IMG/VR virus record: IMGVR_UViG_3300025030_000182
Coordinates: 1 to 45,922 of that record
DNA length: 45,922 nt
Direction: 5' to 3' (one strand)
Source of the DNA: a virus
Shown here: positions 3,837-43,486 of the stretch, piece by piece
How positions within the stretch are numbered: position 1 is the stretch's first letter
Layout of the letters: each line of letters opens with the position of its first letter
Made by a program: the position numbers and the translations under genes
The notes under the pieces: model-generated
What the model was told of the DNA's origin: nothing
The model's input: the letters and a program-made list of their open reading frames with translations, nothing else
Database searches by the model: none

Positions 3837-3898
3837 GATACATCGAAACAATGATTGATATATTCATTAAACATACCAATAATAAAGGAGACCAACAT

Positions 3899-4069
3899 GT
3901 GCCAAACGAATTGATAAATTCACCAAGCAACACAATGAAGTTTTTACAATTTAGAGTTAATAATTCTTTACATTTAGATTTAATAATTTATCAAAAAACC
4001 AAAGGTTTCAAAACAAAACAAGATTTACTTACGTATATAGTAGAAAAATTTTTAAGGGAGACTAAATAA
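3899..4069 (+). CDS. Ribbon-helix-helix-like small DNA-binding protein, GTG start
   Basis: A 56-aa product if translation starts at GTG 3899, placed 9 nt after AAAGGAG; the upstream in-frame ATG at 3851 has no ribosome site and lies almost at the transcription start. After a short tail the sequence runs beta strand (KFLQFRVN), helix (about LHLDLIIYQKTKGF), turn, helix (KQDLLTYIVEKFLRE), the order of CopG/Arc-type RHH repressors. It heads an operon immediately behind a promoter, fitting a regulator. The fold is inferred by eye, and a non-DNA-binding role is possible. Confidence 0.55.
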   Translation: MPNELINSPSNTMKFLQFRVNNSLHLDLIIYQKTKGFKTKQDLLTYIVEKFLRETK

Positions 4070-12702: not shown

Positions 12703-12866
12703 AGTGTTTAAAACACAAATTTAAAACAAAACAAGAAGCCGGTAATTTTATTATACAATTTGGAAGGTCATCTAAATGTAAAGGTAATTATTGTAGGATT
12801 TATTTTTGTAATAAGTGTTTATTTTGGCATTTTACTAGAAAAGAGGAGATAATTTATGGAAGATAA
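12699..12866 (+). CDS. Small zinc-finger protein
   Basis: This 55-aa protein starts in an ATGA overlap with the polymerase. It has a basic N-terminus with KTKQEAGNF, then C-x4-C-x4-C-x2-C ending CNKCLFWHFT. This matches the basic, EA-containing, CxxCxxWHLT-type small phage proteins often near replication genes. Function unknown, probably zinc-binding. Confidence 0.6.
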   Translation: MKCLKHKFKTKQEAGNFIIQFGRSSKCKGNYCRIYFCNKCLFWHFTRKEEIIYGR

Positions 12867-13098
12867 TAGAAAATGTAGTTGCTGTGGTTGGGTAAGTACT
12901 GATTTTTATAGTGAGGATGATTTTATTTTATGTGGTATATGCTATAAAACACAAAGTAGTAATATTTTTAAGAATAATTATGTCGGTATAGATACATTAA
13001 GTTTAGCAAAAAAACTAGCTAGTCAAATTTCTTATTGTACAAATTTAATTTTAGGGGAATTAAGGCAAAAAGGGGGTGAGCATCGTTATGGAAAATAA
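12856..13098 (+). CDS. Small zinc-ribbon protein
   Basis: This 80-aa protein is preceded by AGAGGAG. CSCCGW (residues 8-13) and CGIC (26-29) make a zinc ribbon; the C-terminal half is helical. It overlaps the preceding gene by 11 nt. Function unknown. Confidence 0.6.
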   Translation: MEDNRKCSCCGWVSTDFYSEDDFILCGICYKTQSSNIFKNNYVGIDTLSLAKKLASQISYCTNLILGELRQKGGEHRYGK

Positions 13099-13441
13099 AG
13101 ATTTTGTAAAAGAAACTAACGAAAATATAAATGATATTTTAGTCAATGATGTCGCTATGCATAAAACTAACATTATTAATGTTCTTAATGAATCTACATT
13201 ATTACAGCATTTTTTAAATACTATGGTAATTCAAGAATTACAAAATAGATTATTAGTTTTTATAAAGAATAATAACTTAACACAAGCTGAAATATTATTA
13301 AATCAATGGATAAATTCATGGAAAATATCTATAGATCAATTAGCTGTAGACATGGATTTATTACCAGACGTTAAAAATCATCTTTTTGATGTTAGTAAAA
13401 AAACGTCAGTTTTGATTAGAAATTTGTTAATAGGCGAATAA
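13088..13441 (+). CDS. Hypothetical helical protein
   Basis: A 117-aa product from ATG 13088; a GTG at 13076 is also in frame but sits directly on the AGGGGG ribosome site. The sequence is mostly helical (LLQHFLNTMVIQELQNRLL and LTQAEILLNQWINSW). No motif recognised. It lies between replication genes. Confidence 0.6.
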   Translation: MENKDFVKETNENINDILVNDVAMHKTNIINVLNESTLLQHFLNTMVIQELQNRLLVFIKNNNLTQAEILLNQWINSWKISIDQLAVDMDLLPDVKNHLFDVSKKTSVLIRNLLIGE

Positions 13442-13646: not shown

Positions 13647-13884
13647 TATGATTAAACTTAAACTTAAGCTTGTTATAATTTTTACTTGTTTTTTGCTTAG
13701 TTGGTTAATGTATTATAAAATAGAAAAATCAAGGCCTAAAACAAATAATTTACAATGGGGGACTATTTTAAATAGTCCACTTGATAATGGTAGTCCCAAA
13801 TTAATACTTGACCCACCTAGATACTACAAAGCTACAATAATTAAGCCCGGCAAAGAATATAAACTAACCCAACAACTCAATTAA
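13639..13884 (+). CDS. Single-pass membrane protein
   Basis: This 81-aa protein has one N-terminal membrane anchor (LKLVIIFTCFLLSWLMYY) flanked by Lys, then about 50 polar residues likely outside the cytoplasm. The layout is spanin-like, but nothing else supports a lysis role and the gene sits among replication genes. The start is uncertain (13624, 13639 or 13648 in frame). Confidence 0.5.
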   Translation: MTNMIKLKLKLVIIFTCFLLSWLMYYKIEKSRPKTNNLQWGTILNSPLDNGSPKLILDPPRYYKATIIKPGKEYKLTQQLN

Positions 13885-13906: not shown

Positions 13907-15100
13907 ATGGCAAGAAAACTTAGTAATTGGCTTGAGTCCTTTGAAAAATGGTTCGAAGGAACAGAAATACCGGAAATTTATGCAAAAGCTGTGGGGTTAT
14001 CAACTTTGGCTTCAGCTTTAGAAAAAAAAGTCTGGTTTATATTAGGGCGTTACAAAATTTATTGTAATCTTTATTGTGTTTTGATAGGTAAGCCAGGAAT
14101 AGGCAAAAATCAAGCTATAAATTTTGGGCATAAGTTATTACTTGCAGCAGCGCCCGATGTTAAGTTTTCTGCAGACAGTGTTTCGACTAGAGCTTTTTAT
14201 TCTGATTTAGAAGGAGCAAGTAAAATATTACATTGGAAAGACAAACAACAAGTTCACTGTTCTTTGACTGTGCTTAGTAGAGAGTTTGAAGTTTTCATAG
14301 GGGATAAAAAATCCAACAGCCAATTATTAATTAATTTAACTAACTTTTTTGATTGTGCAGATGATTCTTTTACTCATAAAACTCAACATAGCGGAAGCAA
14401 TAAAGTAGAAAATTTGTGGTTAAATATTTTAGGAGCTACTACGCCATCATCTTTAGCTAATTGTTTAAGTATAGCTGCAACAGAAGGTGGATTGACTTCA
14501 CGAATTTTATTTGTTTTTGCAGAGAAAAAACGTCAAAATATTGCTATTCCTGTATTAACACCAGAACAAAAAGATATAGAGAATAAACTTGTCCATGATT
14601 TGTTTTTGATAAATCAGATAATAAATGAGTACACTATGTCTGATGAGGCCAGAGATAATTATATCGAATATTACAAAACTTATTTAGATAATAAAATTTG
14701 TACTGATTTGAGATTTGAAGGTTGGTATTCTCGAAAAGCTTTGTTTATCAACAAATTGGCTATGATTTTTAGCATAGCAGAATCCAATAACTCTTTAATA
14801 GAATGGAGGTATTACGAACAAGCTATAAGTTATTTGGAAACTTTAGAGTTAAAAATGCATTTAGCATTTAAAGGTCTCGGTAAAACTGATATCACAGCAG
14901 ATATTGATTTTGTTTTAGAATATATCAAAACAGAAAAAACTGTTACAAAAGCTACTTTATCAGCTCAAATATGGCGAAATGTAGACTCTTCAAAAATAGA
15001 CCAAGTTTTAGAGTTATTAGTGCAATCTAAAGCTATTGCTGTAGACAATTCTAAAATTAGTCAAAATATTGTTACATATAAATTTCTTAAAATGATTTGA
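13907..15100 (+). CDS. DUF3987-type primase/helicase ATPase
   Basis: This 397-aa protein has N-terminal SNWLESFEKWFEGTEIPEIY, a phosphate-binding loop GKPGIGKN (about 62-69), a Walker-B-like SLTVLSREFEVFI segment and a C-terminal winged-helix-like region. This is the layout of phage DUF3987 replication ATPases, taken as helicase or primase-helicase. The canonical GK[ST] is GKN here. The only other replication ATPase in the window is Sak4, so this is the best replicative helicase candidate. Confidence 0.75.
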   Translation: MARKLSNWLESFEKWFEGTEIPEIYAKAVGLSTLASALEKKVWFILGRYKIYCNLYCVLIGKPGIGKNQAINFGHKLLLAAAPDVKFSADSVSTRAFYSDLEGASKILHWKDKQQVHCSLTVLSREFEVFIGDKKSNSQLLINLTNFFDCADDSFTHKTQHSGSNKVENLWLNILGATTPSSLANCLSIAATEGGLTSRILFVFAEKKRQNIAIPVLTPEQKDIENKLVHDLFLINQIINEYTMSDEARDNYIEYYKTYLDNKICTDLRFEGWYSRKALFINKLAMIFSIAESNNSLIEWRYYEQAISYLETLELKMHLAFKGLGKTDITADIDFVLEYIKTEKTVTKATLSAQIWRNVDSSKIDQVLELLVQSKAIAVDNSKISQNIVTYKFLKMI

Positions 15101-33119: not shown

Positions 33120-33571
33120 GTTGACCTCTCCTTAACTGTCAAAGTTAATACAATATGATTACATACTCTATTACCAAAAGCTTCTATATCAATACTGTCT
33201 ACTTGAATAAAATCATGGTAAAAGCATGTTGAATTTAAATCTGGTTTTGCTGCAAAAGCTGATTCAATGGCAGTAATTAATGTTGAGGCTTGAGTTTCAG
33301 AACTGTCTGTTAAACCTAACCAACCTTCAAGTTTATATTTGTAAGTTTTTTCTCGTTGATTGCCTATTCCCAAAACGACCTGTTCTGTAGTCTGGCTCTC
33401 CATATAAATAAACCAAACTCGTGATATACTTACACCACTAATAACAGTCTTGACCAAATCAGTATATTTGGATTCTGATCTTATCTCTCTAGCATAGTCA
33501 TAAACATTGCCTATGTTTGTCACATCAGACAATATTGTTTTAATCTCTGCTCTTATAGTCAATTCAGCCAT
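33116..33571 (-). CDS. Tail terminator / completion protein
   Basis: This 151-aa alpha/beta protein (RVWFIYMESQTTEQVV, KYKLEGWLGL) lies between the HK97 gp10-like gene and the tail tube gene, the usual place of the lambda U-like terminator. Sequence identity to a named family is not visible to me; the call rests on size, fold pattern and order. Confidence 0.6.
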   Translation of the reverse strand: MAELTIRAEIKTILSDVTNIGNVYDYAREIRSESKYTDLVKTVISGVSISRVWFIYMESQTTEQVVLGIGNQREKTYKYKLEGWLGLTDSSETQASTLITAIESAFAAKPDLNSTCFYHDFIQVDSIDIEAFGNRVCNHIVLTLTVKERST

Positions 33572-34065
33572 TATCCCATCATCCTCCTATGAAATTCTTT
33601 CATAGCTAAAGTTATTGCTAATTGTATTTTAGGCAAGGCTTCAGCTTCTGCTTTTTCTGTAATACCTAATCCTGGTTTTGAAGTCGAAGCTATATAATTT
33701 GCAAGCTTACTTACACTTGCTTTAGATGTAACTTTTCCTTTGCGTCTCATCCAAGCAATTAGTTTATCTCTAGGATAAACAGTCCTTTGCATTCCTGCAA
33801 CTCGACCCTTATCTAAAACATGAAAATATTTCTTGGCTGTTCCTGTGGAAAATACTTTAATATTAAAACTATCTGTTCCTCGAATTAAACTTCCTTGAAT
33901 AGAGTCTCTTGTAGCTCCAGATGATTTAGGTGTAAATTTTTTAACTGAATCTGTAGCTGTTTTTACAGACTTTTGCATTGTTTTACGAACTTCTCCTATA
34001 AGTTTTTCTTTAACACTCGTAACCCAATTTTTAGAAATCTTAAACTCTATATCAATTATAGCCAT
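33571..34065 (-). CDS. HK97 gp10-like head-tail/tail completion protein
   Basis: This 164-aa protein has VKKFTPKSSGATRDSIQ (about 41-57), FHVLDKGRVAG and a basic C-terminal helix, the Px[ksd]TGxLRxS plus aromatic-x-LexG pattern of HK97 gp10-like proteins. Its start and stop share single bases with both neighbours, giving tight coupling. Confidence 0.75.
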   Translation of the reverse strand: MAIIDIEFKISKNWVTSVKEKLIGEVRKTMQKSVKTATDSVKKFTPKSSGATRDSIQGSLIRGTDSFNIKVFSTGTAKKYFHVLDKGRVAGMQRTVYPRDKLIAWMRRKGKVTSKASVSKLANYIASTSKPGLGITEKAEAEALPKIQLAITLAMKEFHRRMMG

Positions 34066-36097: not shown

Positions 36098-37990
36098 TTA
36101 ACCAGCCACAGTCTCACGATAGAAAGGTCTGTAATCTGTAATTACCCCACCATAAACATGACGCAATTTCCAAGTAATAATATCATTGCTAAACACAGAA
36201 CCAACTGTAGGTGCTGACTGTAACCACATTTCAGGCTCGATTTTACCATCCAAGAAACCTATTTCCAAACCAGGCCACATGCTTGGATCTGCTACCGCAT
36301 ACCAATCTGTAGCATCAGTCCAATGCATAACAGTAATGTTCGAATATGACTGATCTCTTACAAAATCAGGAGATTGCGGAGTAAAATCACCCCTACCTGA
36401 TGCTACAATAGCAGCCCATACTGTTGCTTCCAAATCAATAGGATTAAGAATTATCTTAGGAAATATACCAAGAACCTCACTTGTATCTTTCTCAGTCTGC
36501 TTCATCATAGCAGTTCTAACCACAGCTAACTCTGCGGCTGAAAACGCCGTTGTTCCTAAATTACTATGTGTAGCAGCATGAAACAAAACTACATTGTCAT
36601 AAATAGCAGCATTTGTAGTAAAAAAATCAAACACAAATTTATAAAGCGTTCTGGCTGCTGCAACACCCATACGCTTAGGAATTCTACGAATAGCATTAAT
36701 ATCATCATTCTTTATCATTTCAAACGTGACATTCTCAGTGTAACCACGTTTGCTTACACTAAATGTAGCTTCTTCGTCTGTAGGGCTTGTAGCTGCTGTA
36801 TAAGGTGCAGATTCTAACACAGTTGGTAAATCTCCATAGCCGCCAAATCTAACTCTATGCTGAGTCTTAAAATCTGGAACTGTGGTAATTTCACAAACTT
36901 TATTCCAGTCTCTATTCCAATGACTCTGTGACCATTCTTTAAGCATTTTGCGATTTAAAGTCTCGCCCAAAACATTAGCAAAACTTGTTGAATCCAACGA
37001 AGCTGTCAATCTAGAACAATTTTTAACCAATCCAGTAATAGCATTATCACCTGTAAAGTTTACATAAGCTGCTTTAATGCTATGAATCTTACCATCCATC
37101 AAATCATCAAACATTTTTATTCTATTATCCATATCATCAGCTAAAATTCGTACACTTCCTAAATCCTTAACTGTCTGGGCTTGAATAATATCTAAATATT
37201 GTTTTTCAATCTGAATAGCTTGATCCAATATTTTCTCATCAATAGCTTTTCCTGCAAACTGGGCTTTTAATTTTGCATTTGCAACTTCAGGTAATTTTGC
37301 AGCTTGTAATTTTGTTTCTAACAATAACTGCGTATTACCTATTTTAGCTTTTTCAAGTTCTATTGCAAAAGAAGCGTGTAAAGTAGCTAAATCTGTTTCA
37401 CGCTGAACTTTTTCCTTCTCTGCTCTTATATATGCAGTAGCATCTGTATTAGCACTAGCTACCAGTTTCATAAACTTACCATCAGCAGCCGGAGTATGTA
37501 CTATATCCACAGCAGCTTTAACAATACTCAAAACTTTTCTAGTGCCATCAGGCAAAATTTCTTCCTGGCCTAAACAATCGACAGACAAACCTATTAATTC
37601 AGGATTATCTTTAAACGAGGATTGTAAAATATCTCGAATTACATTACCTGATCCAGACTGAACCAAGTTTAACTTACCTACCAAAGCATCTTCAGTAGCC
37701 TGAACATTGCTTAACCATCCTGCAATTTGTTTCACAGATTTATCACTCTGCGTATGCTGCGAATCATCCAGCAAAAACACTTTTGCCCCTTCAAACAATT
37801 TCAAAGCACTTTGCAAAACTTCCTTAGTCCAAACACGCTTGTTTTTATCCTGACCATATTTAATTATTCTAACATCCCAAACATAGCCTTTTTTATCTAC
37901 CTCTGCAGATTGCAAAATACAATCTATTTTTAAATTCTCACCATTTATAACTTCATTAGCTTGAAGTCTACTAAACAATCTTTTGGACAT
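36098..37990 (-). CDS. Prohead protease - scaffold - major capsid fusion
   Basis: A 630-aa product from ATG 37990, after GGAGCTGATA; the reading frame can be extended upstream without a ribosome site. Residues 1-180 form a prohead-protease-like domain with His79 (DDSQHTQS), Ser136 (IGLSVDCLG) and Asp162 (AAVDIVHTPA). Residues about 185-300 are a charged coiled coil, like a scaffold. Residues about 330-630 look like a HK97/Mu gpT-type major capsid (KRGYTENVTFEMIKNDD, ending ITDYRPFYRETVAG). Normally these are two or three genes. Maturation would require self-cleavage. Confidence 0.75.
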   Translation of the reverse strand: MSKRLFSRLQANEVINGENLKIDCILQSAEVDKKGYVWDVRIIKYGQDKNKRVWTKEVLQSALKLFEGAKVFLLDDSQHTQSDKSVKQIAGWLSNVQATEDALVGKLNLVQSGSGNVIRDILQSSFKDNPELIGLSVDCLGQEEILPDGTRKVLSIVKAAVDIVHTPAADGKFMKLVASANTDATAYIRAEKEKVQRETDLATLHASFAIELEKAKIGNTQLLLETKLQAAKLPEVANAKLKAQFAGKAIDEKILDQAIQIEKQYLDIIQAQTVKDLGSVRILADDMDNRIKMFDDLMDGKIHSIKAAYVNFTGDNAITGLVKNCSRLTASLDSTSFANVLGETLNRKMLKEWSQSHWNRDWNKVCEITTVPDFKTQHRVRFGGYGDLPTVLESAPYTAATSPTDEEATFSVSKRGYTENVTFEMIKNDDINAIRRIPKRMGVAAARTLYKFVFDFFTTNAAIYDNVVLFHAATHSNLGTTAFSAAELAVVRTAMMKQTEKDTSEVLGIFPKIILNPIDLEATVWAAIVASGRGDFTPQSPDFVRDQSYSNITVMHWTDATDWYAVADPSMWPGLEIGFLDGKIEPEMWLQSAPTVGSVFSNDIITWKLRHVYGGVITDYRPFYRETVAG

Positions 37991-38261
37991 TATCAGCTCC
38001 TTTCGGTAAAATAGTTCCAACACCAATTTTAGCATCCTTTACTTCAATAACATGTTTTTTGGCATCTTTAGTTACTACAACAATATAAGTTTTTTCGTTT
38101 TCAGTTTTAACTATAGCATTTAAAATATCATTTTTGGTTAGCTGCCTAGTTTCCATTCTGAATCTTATTTTACCAGATTCTTCATCTAAATCTTGCTTTA
38201 CATCTTTATACTTCAGACCATTTAACATTACCTCACTTACAAAATCAAACTTATCCTTCAT
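37971..38261 (-). CDS. Small protein between portal and protease
   Basis: A 96-aa product from ATG 38261, with TTTAGGAG 9 nt upstream; the longer frame from a TTG at 38288 overlaps the portal and is less likely. It is charged, with beta-hairpin-like repeats (KTYIVVVTKDAKKHVIEVKD). Overlaps the capsid fusion start by 20 nt. Possibly a head assembly factor; not recognised. Confidence 0.6.
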   Translation of the reverse strand: MKDKFDFVSEVMLNGLKYKDVKQDLDEESGKIRFRMETRQLTKNDILNAIVKTENEKTYIVVVTKDAKKHVIEVKDAKIGVGTILPKGADNVQKIV

Positions 38262-40898: not shown

Positions 40899-41304
40899 TT
40901 TCTATTGTCATATCCTTAAATTTTGCCAACATAAAGTTTAATTTTTCAGAAACATTATTTTCTGTATCAGACTTTGTACTAAACTTTCCCTTACTATAAA
41001 CATTTAACAACTTCCATAATAAATTATTATCCCCAGCCATTGCTTCGGCAAAGACTTTATTTTCTAAAGCTTCTGTCAATAACTCAGATTTAACAGTTTG
41101 GATTTTATTCAACAAATCAATTAAATTTTTATCGGCTTCTACATAATCTTTTAAAATAACATAGCTTACTTGCAAAAATTTTGCTGTTGCAGCTAACATA
41201 CCACTGTTTTGCCATAAAGCTTCTATAACAATCTTGTCACTTAAGTCAATTTTATTGCCACTGTGGAAATTCTCAACTATATTTACTATATTCGCAATAC
41301 TCAT
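40855..41304 (-). CDS. terS: Terminase small subunit
   Basis: This 149-aa protein lies directly upstream of TerL. It has an N-terminal helix-turn-helix-like segment (GMLAATAKFLQVSYVILKDY, about 35-54), a central coiled oligomerisation region and an acidic C-terminus. It recognises the packaging site and regulates TerL. First gene of the late operon, about 60 nt after a good sigma-70-like promoter. No strong AGGAG, but AT-rich palindromic DNA is immediately upstream. Confidence 0.75.
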   Translation of the reverse strand: MSIANIVNIVENFHSGNKIDLSDKIVIEALWQNSGMLAATAKFLQVSYVILKDYVEADKNLIDLLNKIQTVKSELLTEALENKVFAEAMAGDNNLLWKLLNVYSKGKFSTKSDTENNVSEKLNFMLAKFKDMTIENVSTGICSSSVESD

Positions 41305-41463: not shown

Positions 41464-42157
41464 TATAAAAATTTTTATGATTTGCGAAGGCGGGTAAATT
41501 TTTAGTTTACATTTTTATGCAAATACAAATACAACTACAACTGCATTTGCAATAGATATATAAAGGTTTTTATATAAGTAATTAAAATAAGTTAGAGTGA
41601 GATAGCTTAATATTAATCCCTCTTGCAGATAATTTGCTAGGGGTATTGCAAATGCTATTGCAAATGCTATTGTATTTAATTTGCATATGCAAATGGTTTG
41701 TATATGCGTAGCATATATTTTGCATATATTTTGCACATGCAAATTACCTTGCAAGTGGCTTAGAATAAGGGTTAGGCTTCGCATATAAGGCAAGGTGTCC
41801 CTAATATGCATTGTATATACATTGTGTATACAGATAACTAGGGACACCTATGCTTACGCATATACATATGCTTACGCATATACATTAACTAGGGATTTTG
41901 TATATGCATATGTATATGTATGAAGCATGGTATATGCTACGCATATGCGTAAGCATAAGCATAAGCATTGCATCCAAAATTGACCCATACGCCTTGTGTA
42001 TTGCTTGCAATGGTAGTTGAATATGCTTTGCATATCAAAGCCTTAAATGGGTCGGTTTTAGATGCTTACGCAAGGTGTATAGATTAAATAGGTTATAATA
42101 AAGTATATGCCCAAGCATACAGCAAAGCATGTGCCAGAAAAGTGTATAAAAAATCCC
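41464..42157. repeat. Repeat-dense non-coding region rich in GCATATGC-type elements
   Basis: No credible gene. The block contains an exact 18-bp tandem pair (41849-41866, 41867-41884; unit TATGCTTACGCATATACA), TAACTAGGGA twice (41835-41844, 41886-41895), an 11-bp inverted repeat AGGTGTCCCTA/TAGGGACACCT (41793-41803, 41839-41849), and a 15/18 matching inverted pair (41971-41988, 42047-42064). Many ATGCATAT steps recur. It joins the phased array to its right. Probably a replication origin or control region. Confidence 0.65.
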
Positions 42158-42649
42158 CTTATTCAAGTATTCTTATTCAGTCTTATTTAGTCAGATTCTA
42201 TTTTTTAAAAATATTTTTTATTTTTTTGATTCTGTTTGATTCAATAACGTTTTTGTGTCCTAAACACAGATAACTCCAATACTTATGATTTTTTCATATA
42301 GGTTTATTCAGTCTTATTCAGTTTTATTCAATCTTATTCTATTTTGCTTTTTTTGTACTTATATATGTATATATATATATTAAATATAACAGAATAAGAA
42401 AAGGGATTTTAGTACGAAAAACTGAATCTGACGAAATAAGACTAAATCTGACGAAATAAAACTGAATCTGGTTAAATCATACTAAATCATACTAAATCAT
42501 ACTGAATCATACTAAATAAGTCAGCATTAATTATTACTAAAATTAACTGAATTTAACTAAATCTAATTTTATCGATTGAAATTTAACCATTTTCTGCATA
42601 TAATGATGTACTGAATCTGACAGAATGCGGAAGAATTTGACTAAATCTA
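42158..42649. repeat. Bidirectional phased 10-bp repeat array
   Basis: Left half, in reverse orientation (CTTATTCAGT type): 42158-42167, 42172-42201 (3 units), 42225-42244 (2 units), 42303-42342 (4 units). A TA-rich core follows at 42352-42385. Right half, in forward orientation (ACTRAATCWK / ACTAAATAAG type): 42389-42398, ten uninterrupted units at 42421-42520, three at 42536-42565, four at 42610-42649. Period is exactly 10 bp within blocks. No spacers, so not CRISPR. Best read as an array of protein-binding sites, such as an origin, centromere or operator. Confidence 0.85.
42576..42604 (+). promoter_or_regulatory. Promoter for the 42728 gene, embedded in the repeat array
   Basis: TTGAAA (42576-42581), 17-bp spacer, TATAAT (42599-42604). 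The -10 context (TTTTCTGCATATAATGAT) matches that at 3831. The expected start near 42611 coincides with the first of four 10-bp repeat units, so a bound array protein would repress it. Confidence 0.6.
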
Positions 42650-42727
42650 CTTATACGAAAAAAGTCATAAGTAGTGTTTTTCGGCCACATGTCTAATTAA
42701 GTTAACCCTAATTTAGGAGAAAAAACC

Positions 42728-43486
42728 ATGTCGCAAACACCTGATCAGCGCAAATGCAAAAAAAGTATATACGCAAAATATTACTATGCTCAAAACAAAG
42801 ATAAAATCCAAGCACGCAATCGTAAGCGCTATGCACAAAATCCAGAAAAAGTTAAAGAAATTGCAAAAAAATCTTATGCTAAATGCATGGGCAAAGCAGT
42901 GCCGAAGGCATGTAATAAACAAATAAAATTATCCTGGAATGACATTTGTCCTAATGGCATGGGCATGAATATATACAAAACTTGGATCGATTGCAAAATG
43001 GCAGGTAAACATTTAAAGGGCAAAGGATGTGATAATTGTAACAAAGATTTGAGAAGTTTTCTGGATGAGACAAATCCTTTACCGCCATTTTATGGCTATT
43101 TGCCTAAAGATGCTTCACCTGGTGAAGGTTCTTTGCTTTGCAAAGAATGCTTGGATAAAATAATCGAAACAGAACAAAAAGATTTATCGCCTTTTGAAAA
43201 AATCAAAGCAAATTTAGACAAAGAAAAGTCATTACAAAGTAATGATGAAATATGGGAAAGGTCGAATAAAACTCACAAAGAATTTTTAGGACAACCACCT
43301 GAACTGCAAGACGTTTTGGACTATACAGAAACTCAAATAAATGAGATGTCTGTAAAGGAATATATAGCATATGTGACACCTATTGTAACATTACGCTATA
43401 CTGATCCTGAGATGCCTAGCGAGATAAAAAATAAATTTATCGCTAGTGAAATTAAACTACTTTGCCAGACAAAATATCCTGATTGA
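42728..43486 (+). CDS. Basic, zinc-finger-containing protein
   Basis: This 252-aa protein is preceded by TTTAGGAG. Its N-terminal 50 residues are very basic with repeating aromatics (YAKYYYAQNKDKIQARNRKR), as seen at the start of phage HNH-type or DNA-binding proteins. A CDNC (about 101-104) and CKEC (about 138-141) pair would hold zinc, though no catalytic HNH His cluster is seen. The C-terminal half is acidic and helical. It is the only rightward gene on this side and lies beside the repeat array, so it may be the array-binding protein (inference). Confidence 0.65.
   Translation: MSQTPDQRKCKKSIYAKYYYAQNKDKIQARNRKRYAQNPEKVKEIAKKSYAKCMGKAVPKACNKQIKLSWNDICPNGMGMNIYKTWIDCKMAGKHLKGKGCDNCNKDLRSFLDETNPLPPFYGYLPKDASPGEGSLLCKECLDKIIETEQKDLSPFEKIKANLDKEKSLQSNDEIWERSNKTHKEFLGQPPELQDVLDYTETQINEMSVKEYIAYVTPIVTLRYTDPEMPSEIKNKFIASEIKLLCQTKYPD

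Follow-up and report, generated by a model that had tools for sequence, protein, structure and literature searches.

A bidirectional array of 10-bp units in a tailed phage genome as a possible iteron-type origin combined with an autoregulatory operator

The 45,922-base IMG/VR virus genome IMGVR_UViG_3300025030_000182, analysed here over its whole length (the window), is that of a siphovirus-like tailed phage. At positions 42158–42663 it contains an array of degenerate 10-bp units, which face opposite directions on the two sides of a TA-rich core and extend to the promoter of an adjacent open reading frame, ORF 42728. The same layout is built from another unit in a sister lineage, the one further lineage available for comparison, represented by IMG/VR contigs L053 (= L011) and L012. 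We give about even chances to the interpretation that this array serves both as a replication origin of the iteron type and as an autoregulatory operator.

The sequence-only reading from which this study started had described about 27 degenerate units, pointing in opposite directions on the two sides of a TA-rich core, and had expected a 10-bp autocorrelation peak that shuffled DNA should not reproduce. Such a peak is present: self-match at lag 10 was 0.504 in 42158–42663 (z = 8.1 against order-2 Markov shuffles), while the maximum at any lag in 2000 shuffles was 0.423 or less, and for this lag the five best 300-bp segments of the entire 45.9-kb record all fall in the array. An iterated motif model, converging on NACTRAATNN and represented by such units as ACTGAATAA and ACTAAATCT, recovered 27 units, of which 10 lie on the minus strand (42173–42343) and 17 on the plus strand (42378–42663). 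The first and the last plus-strand units are weak, and two extra weak ones fit the block 42609–42648 in register. Orientation is split completely, since all 10 units left of the core are reversed and all 17 to its right are forward (permutation probability ~2e-7). Tandem pairs of units scoring at least 14 bits were found inside the array 12 times in the forward and 6 times in the reverse direction, with none in the other 45.4 kb. Clear units are grouped in blocks of 3, 2, 4, 1, 10, 2 and 4, which start at 42173, 42227, 42304, 42388, 42420, 42545 and 42609 and have no common register. The predicted run of ten contiguous units in exact 10-bp register lies one base away from its proposed position (42421–42520), and the last block, suggested to sit on the start of a promoter, does follow a sigma-70-like one. 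The assumption that every site occupies the same face of DNA holds within a block and fails across blocks, whose registers differ. Moreover, the unit of 10.0 bp is shorter than the 10.5-bp helical turn, so that a run of ten comes to lie almost half a turn out of phase, except on overwound or wrapped DNA. The elements of the region are the following.

42142–42152, no strand: boundary motif GTGTATAAAAA at the left edge, within the conserved patch 42118–42152 (alignment with L011)
42173–42202, minus strand: outer left block of three units, GACTGAATAA, GACTAAATAA and AATAGAATCT (10-bp spacing; motif scan)
42227–42246, minus strand: left block of two units, AACAGAATCA and TATTGAATCA (motif scan)
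42281–42288, no strand: ACTTATGA, which forms an inverted pair with 42665–42672 as its left member; this is its only occurrence on this strand in the window
42304–42343, minus strand: inner left block of four units in 10-bp register, adjoining the core (motif scan)
42346–42387, no strand: TA-rich core, 88% A+T, ACTTATATATGTATATATATATA, candidate melting site (composition, comparison with the sister phage)
42388–42397, plus strand: AACAGAATAA, first good unit in the forward direction, bordering the core; AGAATAAGA also occurs in L053 (motif scan, alignment)
42420–42519, plus strand: uninterrupted run of ten forward units, all in exact 10-bp register (motif scan)
42545–42564, plus strand: two forward units upstream of the promoter (motif scan)
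42576–42604, plus strand: sigma-70-like promoter of ORF 42728, TTGAAA-17-TATAAT (11 of 12 consensus matches)
42609–42648, plus strand: promoter-proximal block of two strong and two weak units in register, proposed operator (motif scan)
42665–42672, no strand: TCATAAGT, right member of the inverted pair (sequence comparison)
42728–43486, plus strand: ORF 42728, 252 aa, proposed unit-binding protein (N-terminus basic and with Y-x-x-N repeats, followed by the cysteine pairs C101xxC104 and C138xxC141)
13907–15100: DUF3987 primase/helicase gene, elsewhere in the genome, away from the array

Comparison with the sister phage gave the most informative result. In the late genes adjoining the array DNA identity of the two phages is 88%, and 13 of the 14 late proteins tested are 81–97% identical, the remaining one 59%. 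From the intergenic DNA only short islands align well: 42023–42059, 42118–42152, the TA core and the –10 region of the promoter. The second of them is 91% identical to L011 amid largely unalignable surroundings. The TA-rich element ACTTATATAT.. was found in both phages within a patch (42332–42411) that is 78% identical to L012, and in both the flanks flip at the core from T-rich on the left to A-rich on the right. The inverted 8-mer pair occurs once per phage at matching places (13457 and 13870 in L053), and the promoter sequence CATATAATGAT is kept in L053 at 13802. Lag 10 is again the best period of the sister array (z = 5.1), which has 8 units in reverse orientation to the left of its core, 9 strong ones in forward orientation to the right and two weak additional matches, one of them reversed as the sole exception to the orientation rule in L053. 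Five units occupy the corresponding promoter-proximal place (13815–13864). Thus the oppositely directed arms, the core, the promoter with its proximal units and the inverted pair are all retained, but the units themselves are GACACAATAA, GACGTAGTAA, GAGATTGTAA and their kin, and this replacement covers the left arm, the right arm and the promoter block alike. Mean scores of units were 11.0 and 12.3 bits with the model of their own phage and –1.6 and –1.0 bits with the model of the other. Recurrence in related phages had been named beforehand as a check, and a conserved gene spanning the region as an observation that would contradict the proposal; the layout does recur, though with another unit sequence, and the relatives have no conserved gene there.

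This pattern suggests that the layout was conserved while binding specificity switched across both arms and the operator. Retention of the layout together with a change of its letters would be expected either of one sequence-specific reader with changed specificity or of a module exchanged whole. Both arms and the promoter block changed their units jointly, as one would expect if a single sequence-specific protein reads them all. Such a reader would most likely be the product of ORF 42728, because this gene is adjacent, its own promoter carries the units, and its basic N-terminus has diverged (48% identity to the L053 homologue over residues 1–56, the most diverged protein segment compared between the phages). 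Residues 1–61 contain 18 lysines or arginines against 4 aspartates or glutamates. The promoter-proximal block begins just past the –10 box and covers the expected transcription start. ORF 42728 weakly matched phrog_17714, a PHROG of unknown function. A distant protein with its N-terminal module (L217) was considered as a GIY-YIG nuclease, gained no support from Pfam and was not used. The sequence-only reading had offered two candidate binders, this protein and a ribbon-helix-helix (RHH)-like one, and the former is now favoured. The RHH candidate (ORF 3851–4069) had no match in Pfam, PHROGs or PDB, and its low-confidence structural model, too poor for a fold search, is all-helical, without an N-terminal strand. 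The early region of the sister phage, where this candidate could be compared, was not found in the collection search.

Based on this data one can imagine the following course of events. A phage DNA-binding protein, most likely the ORF 42728 product, would read single 10-bp units and assemble cooperatively on both oppositely directed arms. With both arms loaded, the TA-rich core would be strained and opened, and phage machinery (the DUF3987-family primase/helicase and the family A DNA polymerase) could then enter bidirectionally. On the promoter units the same protein would restrain its own synthesis. We infer from the layout all four essentials of this scheme, that is a single protein for all units, its identity with the ORF 42728 product, melting of the core and the start of replication at this place. 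We favour an origin whose TA core is opened through cooperative two-arm assembly, because the description of origins in phage-inducible chromosomal islands (PICI), considered at the end, matches the layout, and the combination of origin and operator gains strong support from the sister phage, where the layout persists with a different unit. The genome also encodes PolA, the DUF3987 primase/helicase, a Sak4-like protein and an exonuclease, which we count for an origin. A number of observations weigh on the other side. The helicase/primase gene is not beside the array, and GC skew is confounded with gene direction. No recognised initiator or other known domain was found in ORF 42728 in the databases searched, and its structural model is of low confidence (mean predicted local distance difference test score, pLDDT, 51) and too poor for a fold search. 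The collections searched provided only two independent sequence variants, and inverted copying between the arms could homogenise units without selection for binding. Finally, origin activity is read from the layout and by analogy.

The earlier proposal had left the choice between an origin, a partition site and a self-regulating operator; origin plus operator now fits best, with the sister layout in its support, and partition has lost ground. The array might be an operator or nucleoprotein switch only, where a bound autorepressor would shut off ORF 42728, perhaps together with the late operon on the left, and the array would have no part in starting replication. Units immediately downstream of the –10 box, the conserved promoter and the start of the late operon 850 bp leftward agree with this possibility. 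We consider it unlikely, since 27 units over 490 bp, most of them far from the promoter, together with the 88% A+T core exceed the needs of a simple operator, and the arms oppose each other about the core rather than about the promoter. Still less probable in our estimation is that minisatellite drift produced a mostly non-functional array by tandem slippage and inverted template switching, which re-amplify any unit. Traces of such processes are visible as 20-bp and 10-bp sub-periods and as mirror-image copies of blocks between the arms, including a 31-nt inverted match (87%) of the left block 42173–42202 to 42417–42447 and, in L053, an inverted arm-to-arm match of 48 nt at 90%; the units of the two phages are, besides, unrelated. 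By inverted copying a new unit can be carried mechanically across the array, which may explain how the switch occurred. Such processes leave unexplained, however, why both phages have kept the 10-bp register, the rule of orientation, the core, the place of the promoter and the units next to it.

Two further functions appear improbable. Terminase recognition sites often contain repeats, and the presumed small terminase (TerS) gene has its start at 41304, at a distance of 850 bp; both points speak for a packaging site (pac or cos region) bound by small terminase. This is the least probable of the alternatives, because the presumed TerS is 93% identical in the two phages (92–93% for presumed TerS and the large terminase, TerL) while the units are unrelated. 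A reader of this kind should not shift its specificity so far, unit conservation does not track that of TerS, and a symmetric array gives packaging no direction. A centromere-like partition site of a plasmid-maintained phage, where a ParR-like protein wraps 10-bp repeats, has only a slightly better standing. ParR of plasmid pB171 binds 10-bp repeats and that of R1 11-bp ones, the specificity of ParR for parC is not the same in close plasmids and determines incompatibility (PMC9426499), and split parC flanks a promoter (PMC5016525). However, no ParM, ParA, TubZ or integrase match was obtained among the window proteins tested, in a search that took in large ORFs, some ORFs being compared with one library only and some small ones left out. 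The parC repeats are direct, whereas here 10-bp tandem repeats form mutually inverted arms, and ORF 42728 is not an RHH protein by its sequence. The iteron-type origin with its own operator remains the preferred explanation.

As to the genomic setting, early genes run rightward and encode a sigma factor, methyltransferases, an exonuclease, a Sak4-like protein, a ParB-methylase fusion, PolA and the DUF3987 primase/helicase. The late operon runs leftward from the presumed TerS gene, assigned by its position without a family match, to the tail genes. A 1.4-kb stretch without a plausible gene separates the presumed TerS gene from the lone rightward ORF 42728, and the array lies in its right half. 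No tRNA or Rfam element was found. Upstream of the late operon, 41644–42071 is dense in palindromic and tandem motifs (TTTGCATATGCAAA, two copies each of GCTTACGCATATACAT and TATTGCAAATGC), and similar repeats are differently expanded in L053 at about 12815–13320. The inverted repeat GGTGTCCCTA...TAGGGACACC (41794–41803 and 41839–41848) is kept as a pair in L053 (12874 and 12957), but with its arms altered to TAGGGACAAC...GTTGTCCCT in a way that looks compensatory. The near-identical island 42023–42059 contains ATATCAAAGCCTTAAATGGGTCG amid poorly alignable intergenic DNA of both phages. The late protein with 59% identity (33571–34065, virion region) is unusually fast-evolving, its neighbours being 93–95% identical. 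A fused head protease/major capsid-like protein is encoded at 36098–38035, with its nearest named relative in Microcystis phage Mae-JY22 (36% identity). A link of the array to GANTC methylation was rejected, as it has 7 such sites and the sister array 1.

Near relatives in IMG/VR are limited to three contigs, one near-identical to the window and two of the sister lineage; queries with terminase, capsid, the N-terminal domain and conserved DNA revealed no others there, and none was found in GTDB contigs, phages or plasmids. Among the matches listed in a collection scan for TCTTA in 10-bp register, the inspected loci except L053 were direct minisatellites or palindromes and had no bidirectional array. 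Distant capsid relatives (32–47% identity) had no 10-bp array in the loci examined, and an eight-base minisatellite GAAGATGA lies near the end of one such contig (L141:5580–5690). At another contig end (L016:13213–13438) more than 20 copies of a 10-bp unit, TCTTACCTGT/TCTTACCTAT, follow head-to-tail in a single orientation. Desulfofustis phage LS06-2018-MD01 has a replication module in common with the window phage. Its strongest tandem repeat, 17-bp GGATAAGATTATTACCA, is accompanied by T-rich/A-rich short inverted repeats (L136:41336–41603) at an equivalent map position, intergenic beside the terminase genes and upstream of a lone forward gene. Its bidirectional motif was at the edge of shuffles and the late genes are non-homologous, so this locus was rejected as a supporting case.

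Among known systems, PICI origins have an AT-rich region with a set of iterons on either side (PMC6092414), and iterons of PICI and of the Staphylococcus aureus pathogenicity islands (SaPI) are read by the cognate Rep protein (PMC6092414; PMC7581432), which in SaPI appears to bind its own iterons as two hexamers (PMC7581432). The array shares this plan, with 10 reverse and 17 forward units around the 88% A+T core and likewise in L053. It differs in being part of a tailed phage genome of 46 kb that encodes a polymerase, in the exact tandem register of a 10-bp unit and in an adjacent gene that is not a known Rep helicase. PICI origins lie directly 3' of the rep helicase gene, while here the neighbours are the presumed TerS gene and ORF 42728; because no rep helicase gene precedes the array, this comparison places it outside the PICI origin family. 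In unit length and tandem register ParR/parC of pB171 and R1 is closer, with one protein site per tandem repeat and repeats split around an autoregulated promoter (PMC9426499, PMC5016525), but it has neither arms inverted about a TA core nor this lack of a motor NTPase match and of a recognisable RHH ParR. Lambda ori with its O protein and the origins of TP901-1 and Tuc2009, which when cloned give the PER (phage-encoded resistance) phenotype (PMC8965321), are likewise repeat-rich phage origins with a phage DNA-binding organizer as reader, the part for which ORF 42728, basic at its N-terminus, diverging along with the units and without a known domain, is a candidate here. In TP901-1 and Tuc2009, however, direct repeats lie inside the organizer gene, whereas this array is bidirectional and upstream of the candidate gene. 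It is a tentative thought that a new type of phage origin is at hand, with bidirectional 10-bp iteron arms about a TA core, read by an initiator family not described before that combines a basic Y-x-x-N repeat with a double CxxC. Its unit specificity could then be exchanged as a whole between sister phages, and heterotypic groups of replication or exclusion would result. A PICI-like layout in a tailed phage widens the picture of such origins, and sister phages with the same layout and fully switched units provide a natural experiment on the array reader and on replication or exclusion groups.
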